From assembly GCA_016223135.1 (NCBI GenBank), contig JACRPQ010000004.1, positions 930,001-994,000 on the forward strand: a DNA stretch of 64,000 bases, in the 5' to 3' direction. The notes beneath the pieces were generated by a model, which did not search any database, was not told the origin of the DNA, and worked only from the letters and a program-made list of their open reading frames with translations. This document shows, piece by piece, positions 9,457-22,768 of this stretch (position 1 is the first letter of the stretch; each line of letters begins with the position of its first letter). Source of the DNA: Chloroflexota bacterium (lineage in GTDB: Bacteria > Chloroflexota > Anaerolineae > Anaerolineales > Villigracilaceae). A program made the translations under genes and the position numbers.

Positions 9457-9503
9457 ATTGATTCCGTCGAGCGATAATGAGGATAATGAGAAATAAATAG
9501 CCC

Positions 9504-9531
9504 TTGACGGATTTCCATTTCTGCCTATAAT
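9504..9531 (+). promoter_or_regulatory. Promoter of the ilv/leu leader
   Basis: TTGACG (9504-9509) and a perfect TATAAT (9526-9531) are 16 nt apart. The expected start is near 9538, 17 nt before the leader ORF. It is the only good promoter between the atp terminator and ilvD. Confidence 0.8.
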
Positions 9532-9554
9532 CGGGCGAAATATCTAGAACCAAA

Positions 9555-9656
9555 ATGAATTCGATCTTCAGCCTCTCCCTTATTGTCGTCCTTCTTGCGG
9601 TCCTTATTATTAAGGACCTGTTTGTGGTTGGGACGGCAACGGTGAGAGTGAGATAA
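9555..9656 (+). CDS. Branched-chain amino acid leader peptide (attenuator)
   Basis: This 33-codon ORF lies between the ilv promoter and a terminator hairpin. Seventeen of 33 residues are Ile, Leu or Val, including the run LIVVLLAVLII at codons 9-19 (10 of 11 branched-chain). Ribosome-mediated attenuators of ilv operons, such as that of E. coli ilvGMEDA, use leader peptides of this size and composition. A small hairpin (9599-9606 with 9611-9618) overlaps the Ile/Leu/Val codons. GGACGGC (9631-9637) can pair with GCCGCTCC (9685-9692, one bulged C), which would disrupt the terminator. No strong Shine-Dalgarno is visible. The function is inferred from layout and composition, and the peptide could alternatively be a small membrane protein. 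Confidence 0.8.
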   Translation: MNSIFSLSLIVVLLAVLIIKDLFVVGTATVRVR

Positions 9657-9683
9657 ACTCGCACACCAAATCTGGAAACATAG

Positions 9684-9715
9684 AGCCGCTCCGACCACAT
9701 CGGAGCGGCTTTTTT
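9684..9715 (+). terminator. Attenuator terminator upstream of ilvD
   Basis: A perfect 11-bp stem, AGCCGCTCCGA (9684-9694) with TCGGAGCGGCT (9700-9710), has the loop CCACA and is followed by TTTTT. It lies 28 nt after the leader ORF stop and about 60 nt before ilvD, where transcription would be aborted when branched-chain aminoacyl-tRNAs are plentiful. Confidence 0.9.
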
Positions 9716-9731
9716 GTTACCCCACCCCCGA

Positions 9732-9760
9732 CCCCTCCCATGATGAAGTCATGGGAGGGG
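9732..9760 (+). other. Perfect hairpin just upstream of the ilvD ribosome binding site
   Basis: CCCCTCCCATGA (9732-9743) and TCATGGGAGGGG (9749-9760) form a 12-bp stem with a 5-nt loop and no T tract. It ends 6 nt before the AAGGAG of ilvD. It may be an RNA stability or processing element, or a dispersed repeat; a role in attenuation is possible but not shown by the sequence. Confidence 0.6.
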
Positions 9761-9777
9761 AGTAACAAAGGAGCCGT

Positions 9778-11445
9778 ATGCGATCCGACACCGTCAAAAG
9801 AGGATACGATAAAGCGCCGCACCGCGCCTTGCTGCGCGCCACCGGGCTGAAAGAGGAGGACTTCGGCAAGCCCTTCGTGGCGGTTGTCAATTCGTACGTG
9901 GACGTTGTGCCGGGGCATGTCCATTTGCAGGAGTTCGGCAGGATTGTGAAAGAGGCTGTGCGGGCGGCGGGGGCTGTGCCGTTCGAGTTCAACACCATCG
10001 GCGTGGATGACGGGATTGCGATGGGTCATGCAGGCATGAAATATTCCCTGCCCTCGCGCGAGTTGATCGCCGACTGCGTGGAAACGATGATCGAGGCTCA
10101 CCGCTTCGACGCGATGATCTGCATTCCCAACTGCGACAAAATTGTGCCGGGCATGCTGCTGGCAGCCATGCGGGTCAACATTCCCACGATTTTTATCTCC
10201 GGCGGTCCCATGCCTGCCGGCAAAACGCCCGACGGCGAGACGGTTGACCTGATTTCGGTCTTTGAAGGGGTGGGGGCGTTTTCAGCCGGGAAAATTGACG
10301 AGGCGCGTCTGACCACGCTGGAACGGTTCGCCTGCCCCTCGTGCGGTTCCTGCTCCGGTCTGTTCACCGCCAATTCGATGAACTGCCTGATGGAAGTCCT
10401 GGGTATTGCCCTGCCGTTCAACGGTTCGGCGCTGGCGAAGACCGCGGAGCGCGAAGCCCTGGCGCGCAAAGCCGCCGCGCAGGTGATGACGCTGCTCGAG
10501 CGCGACATCAAGCCGCGCGACATCGTGACCGCCGAAGCGATTGACGATGCCTTCGCGCTGGATATGGCGATGGGCGGCTCGACCAACACTGTTCTGCACA
10601 CGCTGGCGCTGGCGCACGAGGCGGGGGTGGATTATCCACTGGAACGCATCAACGCGGTGGCGGATCAAGTACCGCACCTGACCAAGGTCAGCCCTTCGGG
10701 CAAGTGGCACATGGAAGATGTTCACCGCGCGGGGGGAATTCCAGCCATCTTGAACGAAATCCAGCGCGGGACGGGGATGCTGCACTTTGATCGAATCACC
10801 GTCTCCGGCACAACGCTGGGTGAGTCGATTCGCGGCTGTGAAATCAAGGATGAAGAAGTGATTCACCGCTGTGAGAACGCTCATTCCAAACGCGGCGGTC
10901 TGGCGATTTTGTTTGGCAACCTCGCTCCCAATGGGGCGGTGGTCAAGGTGGGAGGGGTGACGCCGGAGATGATGAAGTTCAGCGGACCGGCGCGCATTTA
11001 CGAGAGTCAGGACGACGCGATGCGGGGCATTCTGGCGCGCGAGGTGCAGCCCGGCGATGTGGTGGTGGTGCGCTATGAAGGTCCCAAAGGCGGACCTGGA
11101 ATGCAGGAAATGCTCTCGCCGACTTCCGCCATCATGGGGCAGGGACTGGGCGACAAGGTGGCACTCATCACCGATGGACGCTTCAGCGGCGGCACGCGCG
11201 GAGCCTGCATTGGACATGTCTCACCGGAGGCGGCGGCGGGAGGTCCGATTGCCGCGCTGCAGGCTGGGGATGTGATCGAGATTGATTTGGTCGGACGCCG
11301 CCTCGAGGTCCGCTTGAGCGAAGCGGAGATTCAGAGTCGGTTAGCCGCGCTGCCTCCCTTCCAGCCCAGAGTCCAAAGCAAATGGCTCAGGCGTTACTCG
11401 CAGTTTGTGACCAGCGCGGATACGGGAGCGGTGTTGAACGTGTAG
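9778..11445 (+). CDS. ilvD: Dihydroxy-acid dehydratase
   Basis: It dehydrates 2,3-dihydroxy-isovalerate and 2,3-dihydroxy-3-methylvalerate to the 2-keto acids, the third common step of Val and Ile synthesis. The protein has 555 aa. Metal and cluster motifs are visible: [11 protein letters not shown] (C119), [19 protein letters not shown] and [10 protein letters not shown]. In the first motif the sequence is [14 protein letters not shown], as in the E. coli enzyme with its oxygen-sensitive [4Fe-4S] cluster, not the PCN motif of the [2Fe-2S] type; the cluster type is therefore an inference. AAAGGAG precedes the ATG. It is the first structural gene behind the attenuator. Confidence 0.96.
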
Positions 11446-11514
11446 CGTAGTATGCGTTCTCTAACGCTTGGCGACGTTAGAGAACGTCGCTTACGCATAG
11501 TGTTACTTACGCAT
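11444..11514. repeat. Paired-hairpin repeat (CTCT/AGAG loops)
   Basis: Two short hairpins follow each other: GCGTT-CTCT-AACGC (11454-11467) and GACGTT-AGAG-AACGTC (11473-11488). Their tetraloops are complementary. Related pairs occur at 41192-41245 and 50268-50318, and a single hairpin at 28674-28689. The element fills most of the ilvD-ilvB gap and ends just before the ilvB ribosome binding site. Confidence 0.75.
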
Positions 11515-11526
11515 AAAGGAGAGAGA

Positions 11527-13218
11527 ATGAAGAAAACAGGCGCAGAAATTTTATGGGAATGTCTGATGCGTGAAGGGGTGGAGGTGGTGTTTGGTTACCC
11601 CGGCGGAGCCAACATGCCGATTTACGACGCCATGCTCAATTATCCCGTTCATCATGTGCTGGTGAGGCACGAGCAGGGCGCGGCACACATGGCAGACGGC
11701 TACGCCCGCGCTTCGGGCAAGGTCGGTGTGGCAATGGCTACCTCCGGACCCGGCGCAACCAACCTGGTGACGGGCATTGCTACGGCGATGATGGACTCCT
11801 CGCCGGTGGTCTTCATCACGGGGCAGGTGGCTGCGCATCTGATTGGCGGCGACGCCTTTCAGGAAACGGACGTGACCGGCATTACCTTGCCCATCACCAA
11901 GCACAACTATCTTGTGACGCGCGCCGATGAGATTGCCGAGGTGGTGCGCGAGGCGTTTTACATCGCCCGCAGCGGACGTCCCGGACCGGTGCTGATTGAT
12001 ATTTGCAAGAACGCGCAAATCGAAAAGACCGAGTTCGTGTACCCCGAAGAAGTGCGCTTGCCCGGCTACAAGCCGCCTCTGCGCGCTCCCAAAGCCGATT
12101 TGGAGAAAGCCGTCCATCTGATTGAGCGGGCAAAGCGTCCGGTGATTTTGCTGGGGCATGGTGCGATTATCTCCGGCGCGGAGGAGGTCATTCAGCATTT
12201 CGCCGTCAAGACGCAAACCCCGGTCGCCATGACCCTGCTTGGCTTGGGCGCTTTCCCCGCCTCGCATCCGCTTTCGCTGGGGATGATGGGCATGCACGGC
12301 GAGGCGCACTGCAACCTGGCAATCCAAAACGCCGACCTGCTGTTGGCTTTTGGAATGCGCTTCGATGACCGCGTGACCGGCACGCTCAAAACCTATGCGC
12401 CGAACGCCAGGAAGATTCATGTGGAGATTGACCCTTCCGAAGTTCACAAGAACGTGCGGGTGGATGTGCCGCTGGTGGGCGATCTAAAAACCATCGTCAG
12501 CGACCTGATTCCGATGGTGGATGAATACGAGCATGAGGAATGGCTTCAGCAGATTGCCGAATGGAAATCGGATGGCGACGCGCGCTCGATTATGACTTGG
12601 TCTCACGACGGCAAACTCTATGTGGCGCATCTGATTCATGACCTGTGGGAGGCAACCGCAGGAGGCGCGATTGTCACCACCGATGTAGGGCAGCATCAGA
12701 TGTGGGCGGCGCAATACTATTTCATGGACAAGCCCAAACGCTGGATTACCTCCGGCGGTTCAGGGACGATGGGCTTTGGTCTGCCCTCGGCGATTGGGGC
12801 GTGGTTCGCGCGCAAAGACGAGGAAATCTGGGCGGTGGTGGGCGACGGCGGTTTTCAAATGACCGCGGCAGAACTGACGACCGCCGTGCAGGAAGGCGCG
12901 AACGTCAAGGTTGCCGTCATGAACAATAACTTTTTGGGCATGGTGCGCCAATGGCAGGAATTCTTCTTCGAGAAGCGTTATTCGGCGGTCAACATGCTGA
13001 CCCCCGATTTCGTCAAACTGGCTGAGGCGCACGGTGTCCCTGCCCGCCGCGTGACCAAACCCGAAGAGGTGAAAGAAGCCATCGCATGGGCGCGCCAAAT
13101 TCAGGGACCGGCGCTGTTGGAGTTCATGGTGGAACGCGAGGATGCGGTCTATCCGATGGTGCCGGCTGGCGCTTCTTTGCATGAAATGCTGCGCCGACCG
13201 GTGAAGGAGGCAAGGTGA
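11527..13218 (+). CDS. ilvB: Acetolactate synthase large subunit
   Basis: This ThDP enzyme condenses two pyruvates to acetolactate, or pyruvate and 2-ketobutyrate to acetohydroxybutyrate (563 aa). The catalytic Glu is E49 in VRHEQGAAHMADGYARA. The ThDP motif runs from VGDGGFQM (439-442) to MNNNFLGM (466-468). The frame is open upstream to 11452, but ATG 11527 has AAAGGAGAGAGA and gives the usual N-terminus MKKTGAEI; the upstream part is repeat sequence. The regulatory subunit follows 52 nt later. Confidence 0.96.
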   Translation: MKKTGAEILWECLMREGVEVVFGYPGGANMPIYDAMLNYPVHHVLVRHEQGAAHMADGYARASGKVGVAMATSGPGATNLVTGIATAMMDSSPVVFITGQVAAHLIGGDAFQETDVTGITLPITKHNYLVTRADEIAEVVREAFYIARSGRPGPVLIDICKNAQIEKTEFVYPEEVRLPGYKPPLRAPKADLEKAVHLIERAKRPVILLGHGAIISGAEEVIQHFAVKTQTPVAMTLLGLGAFPASHPLSLGMMGMHGEAHCNLAIQNADLLLAFGMRFDDRVTGTLKTYAPNARKIHVEIDPSEVHKNVRVDVPLVGDLKTIVSDLIPMVDEYEHEEWLQQIAEWKSDGDARSIMTWSHDGKLYVAHLIHDLWEATAGGAIVTTDVGQHQMWAAQYYFMDKPKRWITSGGSGTMGFGLPSAIGAWFARKDEEIWAVVGDGGFQMTAAELTTAVQEGANVKVAVMNNNFLGMVRQWQEFFFEKRYSAVNMLTPDFVKLAEAHGVPARRVTKPEEVKEAIAWARQIQGPALLEFMVEREDAVYPMVPAGASLHEMLRRPVKEAR

Positions 13219-13270
13219 GAAATTTTTTAGAGCAAGGGCGAAAGAGGAAATTGGAAAGGAGTGCATGATT

Positions 13271-13831
13271 ATGCAATACACCTTCGTTACTCTTGTGGAA
13301 AACAAACCCGGCGTGCTGAACCGGGTGGCGTCGTTGTTCCGCCGCCGCAATTTCAATATCGAATCGCTGGCGGTTGGACGGACGGAGCGCCCCGATATTT
13401 CGCGCATGACCATTGTGATGGAGTGCGAGGATGAGACGGTGGCGCACAAAATCGAAGCCAATCTCTACAAACTGGTCAATGTGATTGACGTGCAGGATGT
13501 TACGCATCAACCGGCTGTGACCCGCGACCTGGCGCTCATCAAGGTCAAGGCGGGTCCCGAACAGCGGGCGCAGGTCAACAACCTGGCGCAAATCTTCCGC
13601 GCCCGCATTGTGGACGTGGCGGCTGATTCGGTCATTGTCGAAGCGACCGGCACGGAAGAGAAAATCGAGGGGATGATTGAGTTGCTGCGTCCGATGGGCA
13701 TTCTGGAGATGGTGCGCACGGGTCAAATCGCCATGACGCGCGGCGCTTACGAAGGCACACGCCGCGCTCCCGGCGCAAACGGCAACGGCTGGCACGGCGA
13801 CGAGGACGAAAATGCTCTGGCGGAGTATTAG
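13271..13831 (+). CDS. ilvN: Acetolactate synthase small (regulatory) subunit
   Basis: This is the regulatory partner of IlvB. The N-terminal ACT domain (about 1-75; VENKPGVLNRVASLFRRRNF) binds valine in the family, and the C-terminal domain (about 80-160) activates the large subunit. The ATG at 13265 is only 3 nt from AAAGGAG, whereas 13271 has 9-nt spacing and gives the usual start MQYTFVTLVENKPG, so 13271 is preferred. The length of 186 aa is typical of longer bacterial forms. The last 20 or so residues are Gly/Asn/Glu-rich and less conserved. Confidence 0.94.
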   Translation: MQYTFVTLVENKPGVLNRVASLFRRRNFNIESLAVGRTERPDISRMTIVMECEDETVAHKIEANLYKLVNVIDVQDVTHQPAVTRDLALIKVKAGPEQRAQVNNLAQIFRARIVDVAADSVIVEATGTEEKIEGMIELLRPMGILEMVRTGQIAMTRGAYEGTRRAPGANGNGWHGDEDENALAEY

Positions 13832-13860
13832 TAATTGGTAAGTGGTAAATGGCAATAAGG
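13828..13860. repeat. Heptamer tandem repeat (GTAATTG type)
   Basis: Four 7-nt units, variants of GTAATTG, fill the gap between ilvN and ilvC. They are the complement of the TACCAAT heptamers found at 16905-16934 and 19035-19075. The ilvC ribosome binding site follows immediately. Confidence 0.7.
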
Positions 13861-13870
13861 AGAATAGAAC

Positions 13871-14959
13871 ATGGCAAAAATCAATTTCGGCGGCGTGGAA
13901 GAAGAAGTTGTGACTCGCGAGGAGTTCCCATTGGAGCGCGCCCGCGAGGTTCTCAAGAACGAAGTGGTGGCTGTGCTGGGCTATGGCGTGCAGGGACCGG
14001 CGCAGGCGATGAACATGCGCGATAACGGCATCAACGTCATCGTCGGTCAGCGCCCCGGCACGAAGAATTGGGACAAGGCGGTGGCAGACGGCTGGGTGCC
14101 GGGCGAGACGCTCTTCCCGTTGGAAGAAGCGGCGGAACGCGGCACGATCGTCCAGTATCTGCTTTCGGACGCGGGTCAGCGCAGTCAGTGGTCCAAAATC
14201 GTCGAATGCCTGAACGAGGGCGATATGCTCTACTTCTCGCATGGCTTCTCCGTGACCTACAAAGACGATACCGGCGTTGTCCCTCCGCCGAATGTGGACG
14301 TGGCGCTGGTGGCGCCCAAAGGTTCCGGCATGAGCGTGCGCCGCAACTTCCTGGCGGGGAGCGGAATCAACGCCAGTTTCGCCGTTCATCAGGATTACAC
14401 CGGACGCGCCTGGGAACGGACGGTCGCTCTCGGCATTGCCATCGGCGCGGGCTATCTGTTTCCGACCACTTTCAAAAACGAAGTCTACAGCGACCTGACC
14501 GGCGAGCGCGGCGTCTTGATGGGCGCGCTGGCGGGCGTGATGGAAGCGCAATACAACGAACTGCGCAAGCACGGTCACAGCCCCAGCGAAGCCTTCAACG
14601 AGACGGTGGAAGAACTGACCCAATCGCTCATCCGGCTGGTGGGCGAAAACGGCATGGACTGGATGTACGCCAACTGCTCCACCACCGCCCAGCGCGGCGC
14701 GCTCGATTGGAAGAACCGCTTCCGCGATGCGGTTGCGCCGCTCTTCGAACAGCTTTACGAAAGCGTCGCCAACGGCACGGAAGCCCGCATCACGCTGGAG
14801 GCGAACTCCCGTCCCGATTACCGCGAACAGCTCGAAAAAGAACTGGCTGAAATGCGCAATTCCGAGATGTGGCAGGCGGGCGCGGCAGTGCGGGCGTTGA
14901 GACCGGAGAATTGGGGGAGAGAGGTAGACAAGTACACAGGTACACAGGTACACAGGTAA
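13871..14959 (+). CDS. ilvC: Ketol-acid reductoisomerase, Bacteroidetes/fungal-like type
   Basis: It isomerises and reduces acetolactate or acetohydroxybutyrate with NAD(P)H and Mg2+ (362 aa). The Rossmann motif is GYGVQG at 37-42, and metal-binding acidic residues lie in [11 protein letters not shown] and [13 protein letters not shown]. Segments such as [37 protein letters not shown] and [16 protein letters not shown] resemble yeast Ilv5 and Bacteroidetes enzymes rather than the common 330-aa bacterial form, by recollection only. The last ten or so residues ([10 protein letters not shown]) are encoded by the octamer repeat array that begins near 14926; even the stop codon lies in it. AAGGAG precedes the ATG. 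Confidence 0.93.
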
Positions 14960-15012
14960 ACATTTACGTGTGTACGTGTCTACATGTGTACGATGTATAC
15001 GTGTGTGCTACA
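14926..15012. repeat. Octamer tandem repeat array (NNGTANAC), overlapping the ilvC 3' end
   Basis: Units such as AGGTAGAC, AAGTACAC and AGGTACAC repeat every 8 nt and then switch to the complementary form (GTGTACGT, GTCTACAT), making a long imperfect palindrome. The array supplies the last codons and stop of ilvC and ends just before the leuA ribosome binding site. Confidence 0.8.
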
Positions 15013-15027
15013 CAAAAGGAGAGTTCC

Positions 15028-16665
15028 ATGAGAAGTAATTACGTCAAAATCTTCGATACCACCCTGCGCGACGGCGAGCAATCGCCTGGCGCGACGATGA
15101 CCTCCGCTGAAAAACTGGAAGTGGCTCGCGCCCTGGCGCGTCTGGGTGTGGATATTATCGAGGCAGGTTTTCCCGCCGCCTCGCCCGACGACCTGGAAGC
15201 CGTCCGCAGGATTGCAGTTGAGGTGGGCAACCCAGCCGTCGGTGAGTCGGATGCGAGAGTCCCCGTCATTGCGGGGCTGGCGCGGGCGAACAAGTCCGAC
15301 ATAGACAAGGCATGGGCAGCGGTCAAAGAGGCGCAGAAGCCGCGCATTCACACGTTCCTGGCGACCTCCGAAATCCACATGAAGCACAAACTCAAGATGA
15401 CGCGCGAGGAAGTGGTGCAGCGCGTGCGCGAGATGGTGGCGTATGCCCGCTCGCTGTGCGCGGATGTGGAATTCAGCCCCGAAGACGCCGGGCGCTCCGA
15501 CCCGCAGTTCCTGTATGTGGTGTTGGGCGATGCAATCAAAGCCGGCGCGACCACTCTGAATATTCCCGACACGGTGGGCTACACCATGCCCGATGAGTTC
15601 GGCGCGCTCATCAAAGGCATCATCGAAAATACGCCCGGCATGCACGAAGGCATTACGGTCAGCGTCCACACGCACGACGACCTGGGGCTGGCGACCGCCA
15701 ATGCGCTGGCGGGCATCCGCGCCGGGGCGCGGCAGGCGGAAGTGACCATCAACGGCATCGGCGAACGCGCCGGCAACTGCTCGCTGGAAGAGGTCGTGAT
15801 GGCGCTCAAGACCCGTCATCCCATCTTTGGCTTGGAAACGGGCATAGATACCACCCAACTGGCGCGCCTCAGCAAACTGGTTAGCAATTACACCGGCATT
15901 CCCGTTCAGCCCAATAAAGCCATTGTCGGCGCGAATGCCTTCGCGCACGAGGCGGGCATTCATCAGGATGGAATGCTCAAACACAATCTGACCTACGAAA
16001 TCATGCGCCCGGAAGATGTCGGTGTGAATCAGTCCAAACTGGTGCTTGGAAAACATTCGGGACGTCACGCCCTGCGCATGCGCCTGATTGAGATGGGACA
16101 CTCCCTCGATGAAGCCGAACTCGACAAAGCCTTTGCCCGCTTCAAGGAATTGGCAGACCGCAAGAAGGTCATTACCGAAGCCGATTTGGAGGCGCTGATT
16201 GCCGACGAATTCTACCGTCCGCGCGATATTTACGCGCTCGACGGTCTGCAAGTGGCTTGCGGCACGATGGGCATGCCCACCGCCACCGTGCGCCTGCGCG
16301 GACCGGACGGCAAAATTCACACCCAGGCTGCCATCGGCACCGGTCCAGTGGACGCTGCCTACAAGGCAATTGACCATATCGTCAAGGCGCCAAACACCTT
16401 GCTGGAATTCAACATTCACGCCATTACCGAAGGGATTGACGCGCTGGGCGAAGTCACCGTGCGGGTTCAGCCCAAAGACGGTTTGACTCGATTCGACGCC
16501 CAATCGGAAATGCCCTATGAACGCGTGTTTGGCGGTCATGGCGCCGATACCGACATCATCGTTGCCAGCGTCAAAGCCTATCTGGCTGCCCTCAACAAAC
16601 TCCTCACCGCCCAAACCGAAGCCGCCGAGACCCGCCAGCATGATTACGGCGTGATGTTGGGGTGA
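15028..16665 (+). CDS. leuA: 2-isopropylmalate synthase
   Basis: It condenses acetyl-CoA and 2-ketoisovalerate in the first committed step of leucine synthesis (545 aa). The TIM-barrel catalytic domain begins with [16 protein letters not shown], and the metal-binding HxH is in [17 protein letters not shown]. The C-terminal allosteric leucine-binding domain (about 400-545) is present ([28 protein letters not shown]). The frame is open upstream into the repeat and ilvC, but ATG 15028 has AAAAGGAGAG upstream and gives [16 protein letters not shown]. Feedback control by Leu is expected from the intact regulatory domain. Confidence 0.96.
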
Positions 16666-16666
16666 T

Positions 16667-16740
16667 GAAAAGGATGAATTATGAAGGATGAAAGAAGAAA
16701 GATGAAAGATGAGCGATGAAAAGGTCTCGAGGAGAAAAAA
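16667..16740. repeat. Heptamer-like GATGAAA repeats
   Basis: The gap after leuA holds repeated variants of GATGAAA or GATGAAAG with roughly 7-8 nt spacing. It ends at the GAGGAGA ribosome binding site of the next small ORF. Confidence 0.55.
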
Positions 16741-16741
16741 C

Positions 16742-16900
16742 ATGAACACACAAAATGAACATTTAGACGCCGTCCAATCGCATTGCTTCGACCCGTTCCC
16801 CGAACCACAGACCATTCCCTCCGGCTGGGATGTCAGCGCTTTCAATGCCGCGACGCCCTCCTCCGAAGCGGAACCGTCAGGCGAATCAGAATCCTACTGA
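16742..16900 (+). CDS. Small hypothetical protein between leuA and leuC
   Basis: This 52-aa ORF starts at ATG 16742 with GAGGAG upstream. The central segment [19 protein letters not shown] is unusual and not low-complexity, which suggests a real folded or binding motif; the tail is Ser/Glu-rich. There is no signal peptide or membrane segment. I do not recognise a family. Its position inside the leucine operon and its ribosome binding site support expression; a role in LeuCD assembly or regulation would be speculation. The leuC frame also runs through this region upstream of its start, in a different phase. Confidence 0.6.
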
Positions 16901-16904
16901 CATC

Positions 16905-16934
16905 AACCAATCACCAATTACCAATTACCAATCC
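16905..16934. repeat. TACCAAT heptamer repeat upstream of leuC
   Basis: Three to four heptamers (CACCAAT, TACCAAT, TACCAAT) directly precede the leuC ATG and occupy the place where a ribosome binding site would be expected. Confidence 0.75.
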
Positions 16935-16935
16935 C

Positions 16936-18336
16936 ATGCCCAAGACTCTCTTTGAAAAACTCTGGGACTCCCACGTTGTAACCCAACAAGCGGACTCTCC
17001 CGCCATCCTGTACATTGACCTGCACCTCGTACATGAAGTCACCTCGCCGCAAGCCTTCACAGGTCTGCGGCAGCGCGGCTTGAAAGTCCGCCGCCCGGAT
17101 AAAACTGTCGCCACGATGGACCACTCGATTCCCACCACGCCGGTCGGAGGTCCGATGACCGACGCGCTGGCTGCCGCGCAAATCAAACAGTTGGAAATCA
17201 ACGCCGCCGAATTTGGCATTCCCCTCTACGGAATGGACAGTCCCCAGCGCGGCATCGTTCACGTCATCGGACCTGAACTCGGACTCACCCAGCCCGGCAT
17301 GACCATCGTCTGCGGCGACAGCCACACCGCTACGCACGGCGCGTTCGGCGCGCTGGCGTTTGGCATCGGCACCAGCGAAGTCGAACACGTCCTCGCCACC
17401 CAGTGCCTGCTCCAGCGCAAGCCCAAGACCTATGAAGTGCGCGTGGACGGCGCGCTCCCGCGCGGCGTGACCGCCAAGGACATTATCCTCGCGCTGATTG
17501 CCAAAATCGGCGTGGGCGGCGGGACGGGGCATGTCTTCGAGTACACCGGCTCCGCCATCCGCGCCCTGACGATGGAACAGCGCATGACCATCTGCAACAT
17601 GTCCATTGAGGGCGGCGCGCGCGCCGGCATGATCGCGCCTGACGACACAACCTTTGAGTATCTCTACGGGCGCAAATTTGCCCCTCAAGGCGCGGACTGG
17701 GACAAAGCCGTCGCCCGCTGGCGGCTGCTGCCAAGCGACCAAGGCGCGTCCTACGATAAGAGCGTCACGCTCGACGCTTCAACGCTCGAACCGATGATTA
17801 CCTACGGCACCAACCCCGGCATGGGCATGAAAATCACCGACCGCGTGCCGGACCCGTCAGCGCTCGGCGACCCCAACCAGAAACTCGCCCTCCAAAAAGC
17901 CCTCGCTTATATGGGACTTCAGCCCGGGCAATCTCTGCTCGGTCACAAGGTGGATGTCGTTTTCATCGGCTCCTGCACCAACTCGCGCATCTCGGACCTG
18001 CGCCTCGCCGCCTCGCTGCTCAAAGGACGCAAGGTTGCGCCGCATACCCGCGTGCTGGTCGTCCCCGGCTCGCAGGAAGTCAAACGGCAGGCTGAAGCCG
18101 AAGGACTGGACAAAATCTTCAAGGAAGCGGGCGCCGAATGGCGCGAAGCGGGCTGCTCCATGTGCATCGCCATGAACGGCGACCAGTTACAGCCCGGTCA
18201 ATATGCCGTCAGCGCCAGCAACCGCAACTTTGAGGGACGGCAGGGCAAAGGCGGACGTACCTTCCTCGCCAGCCCGCTCACCGCCGCCGCTTCCGCCGTT
18301 CACGGAATGATTACAGACCCAAGAGGAATGTATTAG
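16936..18336 (+). CDS. leuC: 3-isopropylmalate dehydratase large subunit
   Basis: This aconitase-family [4Fe-4S] enzyme isomerises 2- to 3-isopropylmalate together with LeuD (466 aa, typical). Cluster ligands are in FIGSCTNSR and [12 protein letters not shown]; substrate motifs include [21 protein letters not shown] and MDHSIPT. The frame is open much further upstream, but [15 protein letters not shown] at 16936 is the normal N-terminus. The ATG has no Shine-Dalgarno; TACCAAT repeats stand immediately upstream, so initiation is probably weak or coupled. Confidence 0.96.
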
Positions 18337-18416
18337 GTAAACAGGTACACAGGTACACACGTATACAGGTAAAACTGCTCACTGATTACTGATTACTGAT
18401 CACTGATCACTGGAAC
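18337..18416. repeat. Octamer plus ACTGATT heptamer arrays between leuC and leuD
   Basis: 18337-18374 holds octamers of the NNGTANAC type (AGGTAAAC, AGGTACAC, ACGTATAC), and 18378-18414 holds five heptamers of ACTGATT/ACTGATC. Together they fill the whole leuC-leuD gap, leaving no ribosome binding site before leuD. Confidence 0.8.
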
Positions 18417-18421
18417 CCCCC

Positions 18422-19036
18422 ATGCCTCACTTCACCACCCTCACCTCCCGCTTCGTGCCGCTGCCCATCAACGACATTGACACCGACCAGATCATCCCGG
18501 CGCAGTTCCTCAAAGTGACCGACAAAAACGGTCTCGCCGAGGCGCTCTTCTTCAACTGGCGCTACCTGCCCGATGGCTCACCCAATCCCGATTTTGTGCT
18601 GAACAAGCCCGAATCCGCTGGAGCGCAAATTTTGCTGGCAGGCGATAACTTCGGCTGCGGGTCGAGCCGCGAACATGCGCCCTGGGCGCTCACCGCCTAC
18701 GGATTTCGTGTCGTCATCTCCACATCCTTCGCCGACATCTTCCGCAGCAACGCCCTCAAAAACGGACTTCTCCCCATCATCGTAGACGCAGCCGTTCACA
18801 AGATGCTTTTCGAACTGGCGGAAGAAACGCCTCACGCCGCGTTGACGGTTGATCTTGCTTCCCAAACCCTTTTCTACCCTGATCGTCGAGCAAAGTCGAG
18901 ACGCGACGGCTTGGTCACTTTCCCCATTGACCCCTTCAACAAAACCTGCCTGCTCAACGGCGTGGACGAGTTGGGGTACATCATGGGATTTGAAAAAGAA
19001 ATTACGGCGTTTGAAGCAAAAGGCGGTAATTGGTAA
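18422..19036 (+). CDS. leuD: 3-isopropylmalate dehydratase small subunit
   Basis: This is the swivel-domain partner of LeuC (204 aa; E. coli 201). Conserved segments are [28 protein letters not shown] and [14 protein letters not shown]. Near residues 153-165 there is an insertion, [13 protein letters not shown], encoded by a short palindromic sequence (about 18884-18912, containing GTCGAGCAAAGTCGAGAC) that resembles intergenic repeat material; E. coli has only a few residues here. No Shine-Dalgarno precedes the ATG, as for leuC. Confidence 0.95.
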
Positions 19037-19075
19037 TTACCATTTACCAATTACCAGTTACCAATTACTTCACTC
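19035..19075. repeat. ATTACCA heptamer repeat between leuD and cimA
   Basis: About five heptamers (ATTACCA, TTTACCA, ATTACCA, GTTACCA, ATTACTT) run from the last codons of leuD into the gap before cimA. It is the same family as at 16905-16934. Confidence 0.75.
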
Positions 19076-19090
19076 TCCACATCACATACC

Positions 19091-20653
19091 ATGACCCTCC
19101 CTCTCATCCAAATCTACGACACCACCCTGCGCGACGGCACACAATCCGAAGGCTTCAGCCTTTCCGCCAGCGACAAGATTCGCGTGGCGCAAAAACTCGA
19201 CGCGCTCGGCGTGGCATTCATCGAAGGCGGCTGGCCCGGCTCCAATCCCAAAGATGTCGAGTTCTTCGTCCGCGCCCGCGATATGGACTGGAAACACGCG
19301 CAGATCGCCGCCTTCGGCTCCACCTGTCGCGTCAAAGGCGGTCCCGAAGACGACGCCAACATCAAAGCCCTGCTCGATTCGCGCGCGCCGGTCTGCACCA
19401 TCTTTGGCAAAAGTTGGACGCTGCACGTCAAAGAAGTCTTGCTCACCACGTTGGAAGACAACCTGCGCATCATCGAGCAGTCGGTGGCTTACCTGCGCTC
19501 CCAAAACCGCCGCGTCATCTATGACGCCGAACACTTCTTCGACGGCTACAAAGCGGACCCTGCCTACGCCCTCGAAACCTTGCAGGCAGCCATCCGCGGC
19601 GGCGCCGAGACGGTCGTTCTGTGCGATACGAATGGCGGGACCTTGCCCTGGGAAATCGAACGCATCATCCATGACGTGAGGCGGGCTGCGCCAACCCCAT
19701 TCGGAATCCACACCCATAACGATTCCGAATGCGCCGTCGTCAATTCCCTGATTGCCGTGCGCGAAGGCGCAACGCAGGTGCAAGGCACAATCAACGGCGT
19801 GGGCGAACGCTGCGGCAACGCCAACCTTATTTCCATCATCGCCGACTTGGAACTCAAGATGGGATACAAGTGCCTGCCCGAAGGCAGCCTCGCCAAACTG
19901 ACCGAACTCTCGCACTTCGTGGATGAAGTCGCCAACGTCACGCCGGACGACCATCAGCCGTATGTGGGCAAGAGCGCCTTTGCCCACAAGGGCGGAGTCC
20001 ACGTGGCGGCAATGCGCCGCTCGGCGCAGAGTTATCAGCACGTCCCGCCTGAAGCGGTGGGCAACAAGATGCGGGTGGTGGTCTCCGACCTTTCAGGACG
20101 CGGCAATCTGCTCAGCAAAGCCGAGGAACATGGCGTGGAGGTCGAAGGCGAAGAAGTCGTGCCAGTCTTGAACGAAATCAAAGAACTCGAAGCGCGCGGC
20201 TTTTCGTTTGAAGCCGCCGAAGCCTCGGTGGCGATGATGCTCAAACGGCAGGAAATGCACTACCAGCCGCCCTTCGAGTTGATTGACTTTTTGGTGAACG
20301 TGGAGCACCGCTCCGGGCGCGGCATTTTTGCCGAAGCGGCGGTCAAAGTGCGGGTCAAGGGCGAAGTGCTGCACACTGCCGCCGAGGGGAATGGTCCCGT
20401 TCATGCGCTTGACCTTGCCTTGCGCAAAGCCCTGCTCCCGCATTATCCGGCGCTGAAGAACTTCCAACTGGCGGATTACAAAGTCCGCATTCTGGATGGC
20501 AGCAACGGCACGGCGGCGCTCACTCGTGTTCTGATTGACACCCAAAACGGCGTCAAACGTTGGAGCACCGTCGGCGCCAGCGCCAACATCATCGAAGCCT
20601 CCTGGCAGGCATTGGTGGATGCAATCGAGTATGGGCTGCTGATGGCGGGTTGA
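19091..20653 (+). CDS. cimA: (R)-citramalate synthase
   Basis: It condenses acetyl-CoA and pyruvate to citramalate, giving 2-ketobutyrate for isoleucine without threonine dehydratase (520 aa). It belongs to the LeuA-like family but has the citramalate-type signature YDTTLRDGTQSEGFSLS, the metal-binding HTHNDSECAV, and VGKSAFAHKGGVHVAAM. The C-terminal regulatory domain is present (about 370-520). LeuCD and LeuB can carry citramalate onward, which explains its position between leuD and leuB. The start ATG has no good Shine-Dalgarno and follows a heptamer array. A second leucine-specific LeuA is also in the cluster. Confidence 0.92.
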   Translation: MTLPLIQIYDTTLRDGTQSEGFSLSASDKIRVAQKLDALGVAFIEGGWPGSNPKDVEFFVRARDMDWKHAQIAAFGSTCRVKGGPEDDANIKALLDSRAPVCTIFGKSWTLHVKEVLLTTLEDNLRIIEQSVAYLRSQNRRVIYDAEHFFDGYKADPAYALETLQAAIRGGAETVVLCDTNGGTLPWEIERIIHDVRRAAPTPFGIHTHNDSECAVVNSLIAVREGATQVQGTINGVGERCGNANLISIIADLELKMGYKCLPEGSLAKLTELSHFVDEVANVTPDDHQPYVGKSAFAHKGGVHVAAMRRSAQSYQHVPPEAVGNKMRVVVSDLSGRGNLLSKAEEHGVEVEGEEVVPVLNEIKELEARGFSFEAAEASVAMMLKRQEMHYQPPFELIDFLVNVEHRSGRGIFAEAAVKVRVKGEVLHTAAEGNGPVHALDLALRKALLPHYPALKNFQLADYKVRILDGSNGTAALTRVLIDTQNGVKRWSTVGASANIIEASWQALVDAIEYGLLMAG

Positions 20654-20655
20654 TG

Positions 20656-20722
20656 GTATGCAAGTACACACGTACACAGGTAGACAGGTAAACAGGTAGT
20701 CAAGAAATCGAAAATCGAAAAT
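20656..20722. repeat. Octamer array followed by GAAAATC heptamers
   Basis: 20656-20700 has octamers of the NNGTANAC type (AAGTACAC, ACGTACAC, AGGTAGAC, AGGTAAAC); 20702-20722 has three GAAAATC-type heptamers that abut the leuB start. Confidence 0.8.
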
Positions 20723-20723
20723 C

Positions 20724-21785
20724 ATGAAATATAAAATCACCCTCCTCCCCGGCGACGGAATCGGTCCCGAAGTGATTGCCGAGGCTGTGCGCGCGCTCGA
20801 AGCGGTCGCCGGCAAATTTGGTCACACCTTCGCTTTCACCGAGCGTCTGATGGGCGGCTGCTCGATTGACAAATTTGGCTCTTCGCTCACCGACGAAACC
20901 CTGGCAGATTGCCAAGCCGCCGACGCGGTACTGCTCGGCGCGGTCGGCGGACCCAAATGGGACGACCCCAACGCTAAAGACCGCCCCGAACGCGGACTGC
21001 TTGCGCTTCGTAAAGGGCTGGGCGTCTTTGCCAACCTGCGCCCGGTCAAAGTTCACCCGGCGCTGATCGATTCCTCGCCGCTCAAGCCCGAAAAACTGGC
21101 AGGCGTGGATATCCTCGTCGTCCGCGAATTGACCGGCGGCTTGTACTTTGGCTTGCCCAAAGGGCGTGAGATGAAAGACGGACGCGAGCGCGCCGTGGAC
21201 ACCCTCGAATATTACGACTATGAAATCCGCCGCGCCCTGAACTTGGCGTTCAAACTGGCTGCCGAACGCAAAAAGAAAGTGGCCTCGGTGGACAAAGCCA
21301 ACGTCCTCGAATCCTCCCGTTTGTGGCGGCAGATTGCCGTGCAGGTCGGAAAGGAGCATCCCGACATTACGCTGGAACATGTCCTGGTGGATACTGCCGC
21401 CATGCGGTTGATTACCGCCCCTGCCCACATGGATGTGATCGTTACCGAAAACATGTTTGGCGACATCCTGACCGACGAAGCCTCCGTGCTGGCTGGCTCG
21501 ATGGGCATGCTGCCCTCCGCCAGTTTGGGCGAAAGCGGACCCGGCTTGTACGAGCCGATTCACGGCTCCGCGCCCGATATTGCCGGCAAAGGGATTGCCA
21601 ACCCGCTGGGGGCAATCCTCTCCGCCGCCCTGTTGCTGCGCTATTCGCTTCATCTTGAAACCGAAGCCGCCGCCCTCGAAAAAGCAGCGGACGAAGCCAT
21701 TGCCGCCGGCGCGCGCACTGCCGATTTGGGCGGCACACTCACCACCCGCCAGATGGCGGATGAAATCATCAGACGTTTATCATGA
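20724..21785 (+). CDS. leuB: 3-isopropylmalate dehydrogenase
   Basis: It oxidises and decarboxylates 3-isopropylmalate with NAD+ (353 aa). Conserved segments are [22 protein letters not shown], the Lys/Asp site [33 protein letters not shown] and [18 protein letters not shown]. The ATG is directly preceded by repeat sequence and lacks a Shine-Dalgarno. The end of the gene contains AAAGGAG for ilvE just past the stop, so the two are tightly linked. It may also serve the citramalate route to isoleucine. Confidence 0.96.
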
Positions 21786-21799
21786 AAGGAGAACTTACA

Positions 21800-22768
21800 A
21801 TGGCAATGGAATCCCAATTCATCTGGTTGAACGGCGAACTCGTTCCTTTTGAACGAGCGACCATTCACATCCTCACGCCCGCCCTGCACTACGGCGCGGC
21901 GGTGTTCGAGGGCATCCGCTCCTACAACACGGACAAAGGCGCGGCGGTCTTCCGTCTGACCGATCACGCCGAACGCCTGCTCAATTCCGCGCGGCTGTTC
22001 GGCTTCCGCGACCTGCCCTGGACGACGGAGGACGTGGTCAAAGCGGTCAAACAAACCGTGAGAGCCAACGGCTTTGCCGATTGCTACATCCGCCCGCTTC
22101 TCTATCTGGACGGCGGAGGCTGGAACCTGAACGTGGACGGCGGCAAGCCCTCTCTCGCCATCGCGGTTTGGGAATGGAAAAACTACCTCGGCGAAGAAGC
22201 GCTGGAAAAGGGCGTTCGCGCCAACATCTCCTCATTCACGCGCCATCACCCCAACGTGATGATGACCAAGGCAAAAGTCGCCGGCAATTACGCCAACAGT
22301 TTCCTGGCAAAAACCGAGTCGGTGCGTCTGGGCTTCGACGAAGCCATCATGCTCGACCCCGAAGGCTATGTGGCGGAATGCACGGGCGAGAATCTCTTCG
22401 TGGTGAAACGCGGCAAACTCATCACTCCCCACACCGCGCCTGTCTTGGAGGGCATCACACGGCACGTCATTCACACGATTGCCAAGGACATGGGATACCG
22501 CCTGGTGGAACAGCCCATCTCGCGCGATCAACTCTACGCGGCGGATGAAGTCTTCGTATGCGGCACGGCGGCGGAGGTCATCGGCTTGCGCGAGATTGAT
22601 TTCCGCGTCATTGGCGATGGCAGGATGGGACCCATCACCCGCCAGATTCAAAAGGCGTACCACGACACCATCCGCGGCAGGCTGCCGCAATACGAAGCGT
22701 GGTGCGAATATGTGGAGGAGCATCAGCCTTTGGACCTCCCGGCAGACTCGCCGGCTTTGAGCGTATAG
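21800..22768 (+). CDS. ilvE: Branched-chain amino acid aminotransferase
   Basis: This fold-type IV PLP enzyme performs the last step of Val, Leu and Ile synthesis (322 aa from ATG 21800). The Schiff-base Lys is K159 in KAKVAGNYANS; other family segments are HYGAAVFEGIR and VAECTGENLFVVK. An upstream ATG at 21782 overlaps the leuB stop, but AAAGGAG at 21785-21791 points to 21800 with 8-nt spacing. It is the last gene of the ilv/leu cluster. Confidence 0.95.
   Translation: MAMESQFIWLNGELVPFERATIHILTPALHYGAAVFEGIRSYNTDKGAAVFRLTDHAERLLNSARLFGFRDLPWTTEDVVKAVKQTVRANGFADCYIRPLLYLDGGGWNLNVDGGKPSLAIAVWEWKNYLGEEALEKGVRANISSFTRHHPNVMMTKAKVAGNYANSFLAKTESVRLGFDEAIMLDPEGYVAECTGENLFVVKRGKLITPHTAPVLEGITRHVIHTIAKDMGYRLVEQPISRDQLYAADEVFVCGTAAEVIGLREIDFRVIGDGRMGPITRQIQKAYHDTIRGRLPQYEAWCEYVEEHQPLDLPADSPALSV

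Follow-up and report, generated by a model that had tools for sequence, protein, structure and literature searches.

Attenuation of operons for the branched-chain amino acids is familiar from the E. coli ilvGMEDA and ilvBN attenuators, which share their logic and their amino acids with the locus described here and differ from it in the first gene and in spacing. In Listeria monocytogenes the leader of ilvD-ilv-leu, Rli60, has been tested by mutation; like the present leader it places a peptide rich in branched-chain codons before the ilvD of a whole ilv-leu operon and offers terminator and antiterminator as alternatives, but its peptide has 13 codons, CodY acts above it and the organism belongs to the Firmicutes, and the two are likened by layout, not by sequence homology (PMC5864092). 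The Staphylococcus aureus ilvD attenuator also combines a terminator before ilvD with an Ile/Leu-rich peptide (its own, of 26 aa), although its antiterminator pairs with the U tail of the terminator and leaves the stem intact, whereas here the left arm and the loop are taken (PMC5794164). Terminator, antiterminator, anti-antiterminator and branched-chain codons are likewise all present at Corynebacterium glutamicum ilvBNC, where transcription starts one base from the leader start with no room for a Shine-Dalgarno sequence, none being recognisable here either; that system differs in its 15-aa peptide, its position before ilvB and its actinobacterial host (PMC11857589, PMC10272879). The amino acid leaders of Rfam (Leu_leader RF00512, Phe_leader RF01859 and others) are elements of the same type, but none reaches gathering level on the ilvD leader, the best, Phe_leader, scoring 16.4 bits where 55 are required. 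Leader-peptide systems had been known only from Proteobacteria and Actinobacteria until Firmicutes were added (Naville and Gautheret 2010, PMC2965389), and in the accessible part of Sun et al. (2013, PMC3766115) a gamma-proteobacterial origin is proposed for the Rfam attenuator motifs and Chloroflexi are named for T-boxes, not for leader-peptide cases. We found no leader-peptide attenuator from Chloroflexota in the openly accessible literature searched, which agrees with the initial annotation of this locus, to whose author no described case was known. The mechanism is already known from E. coli, Corynebacterium and Listeria; the phylum, the breadth within it and the sibling leaders appear to be new.

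The window, a stretch of 64,000 nucleotides (G000:C3:930001-994000), comes from a 3.8-Mb host genome whose closest named relatives are Anaerolineales MAGs. Behind an ATP synthase gene pair follow a promoter, a leader ORF, a terminator and, at 9778, ilvD, all features given here lying on the forward strand. The ilvD gene (dihydroxy-acid dehydratase, 9778-11445; NCBIfam TIGR00110, E 6e-248) is the first of a 13-kb cluster (9778-22768) in the order ilvD-ilvB-ilvN-ilvC-leuA-leuC-leuD-cimA-leuB, closed by an ilvE-like class-IV aminotransferase gene (ilvB to aminotransferase, 11452-22768), which together cover the synthesis of Ile by way of citramalate and that of Val and Leu. The ilv/leu cluster of the initial annotation was thus recovered with its complete gene set. 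A Shine-Dalgarno sequence for ilvD, AAAGGAG (9767-9773), can be read from the sequence and lies outside the terminator.

The promoter that had been placed ahead of the leader is a sigma-70-type TTGACG-16-TATAAT (9504-9531), which matches the consensus at 11 of 12 positions and is kept in the alignment; a match of at least 9/12 is found just upstream of the leader start in 55 of 65 units, and transcription of the host leader would be expected to start near 9538. The leader ORF (9555-9656, MNSIFSLSLIVVLLAVLIIKDLFVVGTATVRVR) has 33 codons, 17 of them for Ile, Leu or Val, and an ORF rich in codons for the regulated amino acids therefore stands before the biosynthetic operon. Its run LIVVLLAVLII, present as originally described, occupies codons 9-19 (9579-9611), the control codons, the composition of which is kept in relatives while the sequence varies. 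No clear Shine-Dalgarno sequence precedes the ORF, and an SD-like motif was seen in only 8 of the 65 units.

Between the ORF and ilvD lies an intrinsic terminator (9682-9715), the perfect terminator already recognized, with a stem of 13 pairs (9682-9694/9700-9712), the loop CCACA (9695-9699) and a T-run (9710-9715). Its left arm from 9685 onwards, together with the whole loop (9685-9699), is also the right arm of an antiterminator whose left arm (9623-9637) lies inside the leader ORF; 9623-9632 pair with 9690-9699 and 9634-9637 with 9685-9688, separated by the mismatch A9633/C9689. Because the antiterminator uses the terminator left arm and loop, the two structures share a strand and are mutually exclusive. 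In the window sequence the antiterminator duplex has an energy of -24.4 kcal/mol, compared with a mean of -14.7 in shuffles, none of 100 of which equalled it. The initial annotation had paired GGACGGC (9631-9637) with the terminator left arm as seven pairs with a bulged base; the position and the pairing hold, but the real helix is longer, with 14 pairs, one A-C mismatch and no bulge. A further hairpin, absent from that annotation, lies within the leader ORF at 9599-9618 (GGTCCTTATTATTAAGGACC = GGTCCTTA-TTAT-TAAGGACC) and spans the end of the Ile/Leu/Val run. The leader RNA as a whole folds with z = -6.4 relative to dinucleotide shuffles. In the minimum-energy fold predicted for the transcript while it does not yet include the terminator, 9583-9592 pairs with 9630-9640 and is proposed as the upstream arm of a protector, or anti-antiterminator; scored per sequence, the antiterminator arm pairs with upstream bases modestly better than the shuffle mean in 56 of 63 units. 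A protector stem in fixed register covaries no better than shuffles and scores equally when slid by +3, and it is kept as a predicted fold only.

We compared Anaerolineales-type ilvD loci with at least 300 nt upstream, drawn from relatives and named genomes, and an equivalent Ile/Leu/Val leader ORF, a terminator and an antiterminator were present in all 73, the antiterminator ranking 10 or better among 100 shuffles in 67 of them; some loci represent one assembly reached twice, which leaves 66 non-redundant units. Given that the units were selected for Ile/Leu/Val content, this content in the relatives is not independent evidence; what is independent are the constant presence of the unit, the contrast with other bacteria, and covariation. 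The last was computed on a sequence-based alignment (A2) of 64 units. In the antiterminator 13 of 14 aligned pairs show double changes (55 cells versus 26 +/- 4 in shuffles), with a covariation of 0.193 as against at most 0.069 in slid controls, and the terminator has double changes in 11 of 11 pairs (81 cells versus 14), the in-ORF hairpin in 7 of 8 (56 versus 25). All three lie beyond both shuffles and slid controls; the shuffles do not remove shared ancestry, which the slid controls retain, and the two agree. Covarying arms include GGTTAGGATGGC/GCCGCCCTAACC, CGTTTGAGGCGGC/GCCGCCTCAAACG and GCGCGAGGGCGGT/GCCGCTCTCGTGC, and the in-ORF hairpin occurs as GGTCCTT/AAGGACC, GGTTCTC/GAGAACC or CTCCTT/AAGGAG. 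The patterns proposed at the outset as tests, covariation of both alternative stems and a peptide that keeps its composition while its sequence drifts, were hence both found. In two genomes of the genus (L123, G009:C18; G003:C235:9400-9546) the kept leader precedes an ilvD of only 43-44% identity, the gene having been replaced or changed behind it.

The drift of the peptides also bears on what the ORF is for. A hydrophobic product of ~33 residues resembles a single transmembrane helix, as would suit a functional small membrane protein, with a terminator that only adjusts expression of the operon and does not respond to translation. The leader peptides, however, share little identity beyond composition (MITNLSTLILITIISVLIIKDKFVVGMALVRIN in L010, MTTIFLIALLIILLLIIEKDDYAWAASTV in L019, MFSLIAVLALLILVLLVLTLEASAAGARAVWVYEVRP in L026), the residues after the run change with the RNA pairing (K-D where the arm is AAGGACC, E-N where it is GAGAACC), and the ORF itself contains the antiterminator arm, which covaries with the terminator. 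We therefore regard a membrane protein as very unlikely.

For a leader-peptide attenuator the position of the ribosome is decisive, and we modeled it with a footprint of ~30 nt and the stalled codon in the A site. A ribosome at any of codons 10-19 leaves all 14 antiterminator pairs free; the number falls to 11 at codon 20 and to 6 at codon 22, and from codon 24 onwards no pair is free, which in this footprint model would place the switch where the Ile/Leu/Val run ends (codon 19). The model bears out the earlier proposal that a ribosome stalled on the run leaves the arm available, and onward translation masks it. The companion proposal has the arm covered by a ribosome that finishes at 9656; this is borderline, as the footprint at the stop codon (~9638-9667) reaches only the edge of 9623-9637. 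In most units the stop codon lies 19-22 nt past the arm, roughly as far as a ribosome at termination extends upstream. Since a ribosome at the stop codon barely reaches the arm, re-pairing of the arm with upstream sequence is probably required as well for transcription to terminate in fed cells. The finished terminator (-37.7 kcal/mol) is slightly more stable than the antiterminator (-34.3 kcal/mol) even with a stalled ribosome; hence the switch must be kinetic, decided by the order of synthesis.

The same geometry helps to judge a riboswitch-like leader, in which a protein or metabolite would pick between terminator and antiterminator and the ORF would be incidental. Mutually exclusive stems would suit any ligand, but the Ile/Leu/Val-rich ORF is always present and at a near-fixed distance from the antiterminator, neither a conserved aptamer-like core nor an Rfam match was found, and homologous or similar units elsewhere carry codons that match their genes (Arg, Tyr, Met). 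Its probability we put lower still than that of the membrane protein.

We consider it very likely that the leader is a ribosome-mediated transcription attenuator that controls the ilv/leu cluster. The sequences show its parts, their mutual exclusion, covariation and geometry; from these we infer where transcription starts, that the leader ORF is translated, that ribosomes stall on it and that the system responds to starvation. In the proposed sequence of events, RNA polymerase would start near 9538 with a ribosome translating the leader ORF behind it. When charged Ile-, Leu- or Val-tRNA is scarce, the ribosome would stall at codons 9-19, melting the in-ORF hairpin and leaving 9623-9637 free to pair with 9685-9699 once these are made, so that the terminator would be blocked and the cluster transcribed. 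With the tRNAs charged, the ribosome would move over 9623-9637, or depart and let the arm re-pair upstream; with the arm masked, 9682-9694 would pair with 9700-9712 and transcription would end at the T-run. An untranslated leader should likewise be steered towards termination by the protector fold. The classical attenuator logic put forward in the initial annotation was right in substance, nearly every testable element of it having been found.

A covariance model of the unit (R1) has one strong match in the host genome (130.9 bits). Within the family it matches 112 of 152 genomes and 19 of 26 genera at E<=0.01, a count that includes a few false positives, and across the phylum 52 of 400 genomes at E<=1e-5, several of them in other classes. 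Most of the distant matches inspected lie upstream of ilvB, ilvD or a gene resembling acetolactate synthase and include an Ile/Leu/Val ORF and an antiterminator. Of the weak family matches (~28-36 bits), most proved to be ordinary terminators after unrelated genes. Such gene-end terminators, and the commonness of terminators after short transcripts, would fit an unregulated element at ilvD, either a constitutive leader or the terminator of a small RNA; the conservation of antiterminator and stall geometry over many genera argues against this, and it is less probable again than a riboswitch-like leader. Among 29 genomes with a more distant ilvD, R1 at E<=0.01 detects the attenuator unit in 3 of 9 Chloroflexota and in none of the 20 non-Chloroflexota. 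Of 22 ilvD loci outside Chloroflexota, only that of a Holophagales MAG (L101) passes as preceded by an ilv-type unit, with an Ile/Leu/Val ORF, a terminator and an 11-pair antiterminator that R1 does not detect, and it may be independent of the Chloroflexota units. Tandem Ile/Leu/Val units stand before the ilv operon at five loci (L010, L019, L074, L075 and L079), and head-to-tail tandems occur in eight family genomes (G020, G026, G075, G087, G103, G115, G117 and G118).

Inspection of weak R1 matches brought further leaders to light, and leaders for other amino acids were sought ahead of chosen genes. In the host genome an Arg-rich ORF (MFSLFALPRSRRPKPASLREGRAFLVWMTER) and a terminator lie upstream of argG (L168, G000:C15:34560-34713), and an Arg-rich leader precedes argG in most of 22 loci and is conserved across Anaerolineae families (L169-L189; also L112:1486-1750). 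In most near relatives, pairing of the leader with the terminator arm and the immediately preceding bases is stronger than in shuffles, which makes the argG leader a candidate arginine attenuator. Met-rich ORFs (e.g. MQNRPAYPMVTITMLMPMCMEQWMRVWMAR) with a conserved GGCTGTCC terminator occur before metG in the host genome and most relatives (L244, L250 at G000:C1 upstream of 170966 in the host genome, and L249-L276); the antiterminator is short and better than shuffles in few sequences, and the metG leader is a weaker candidate than that of argG, suggested by an ORF rich in Met, a terminator and the unchanging distance between them. In three genomes (L159, L243 and L246/L218) leaders rich in Tyr (YYFYY, YVLIYASLLYYSYMMIY), whose terminator and antiterminator are arranged as in the ilv unit, precede Liv-type ABC substrate-binding proteins, which hints at aromatic amino acids as the cargo of these transporters; the identity of leader codons can in this way predict the role of a neighboring gene. 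Short Ile/Leu/Val leaders also stand before a ThDP-enzyme-like gene that is not an ordinary IlvB (L233-L235; SGNAVLI..GVNGGGVVHVAKH..), whose function could be inferable from its leader, and one genome (G070) has a second Ile/Leu/Val leader, before ilvE.

The trpE of the host genome has no Trp leader and instead carries a T-box (L195:987-1430; RF00230, E 1.4e-12, below the gathering score), so that T-boxes and leader peptides are in use side by side in a single genome. That a tRNA-sensing T-box operates at ilvD too, as the one at trpE and the T-boxes known in Chloroflexi (PMC3766115) might suggest, has a negligible probability, since the ORF and the two stems take up the 180-nt leader and no T-box covariance model matches 9500-9790 at E<=10, though trpE matches. 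Together with the leader-peptide attenuator at ilvD, these leaders raise the possibility, for which we judge the chances to be even, that leader-peptide attenuators for several amino acids occur as a set throughout the Chloroflexota, for Ile/Leu/Val (ilvD, ilvB, ilvE), Arg (argG), Met (metG) and Tyr (Liv-type transporter), with many leader ORFs lacking a Shine-Dalgarno sequence and some branched-chain operons carrying two attenuators in series. If so, leader-peptide control would be an old and general way of regulating genes beyond the Proteobacteria, Actinobacteria and Firmicutes. A case that covaries and extends across a whole order, in a phylum that also has T-boxes, allows direct tests of how the two systems arose and were replaced, and it offers a regulatory read-out of amino acid supply for uncultured bacteria known almost only from their genomes.

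Two smaller features concern the stretch between the attenuator and ilvD. In the window a perfect 12-bp inverted repeat (CCCCTCCCATGA-TGAAG-TCATGGGAGGGG, 9732-9760) lies between the terminator and ilvD; no T follows it, it is not kept in near relatives, and its flank has no other close copy within the window. At three other loci (L020, L021 and L023) an additional ORF of ~40-60 codons (MNEEFTPQADLSYDGVPGEPVVTPEAEAAQWVSDAMFDAYNG in L020) is found between the attenuator and ilvD.
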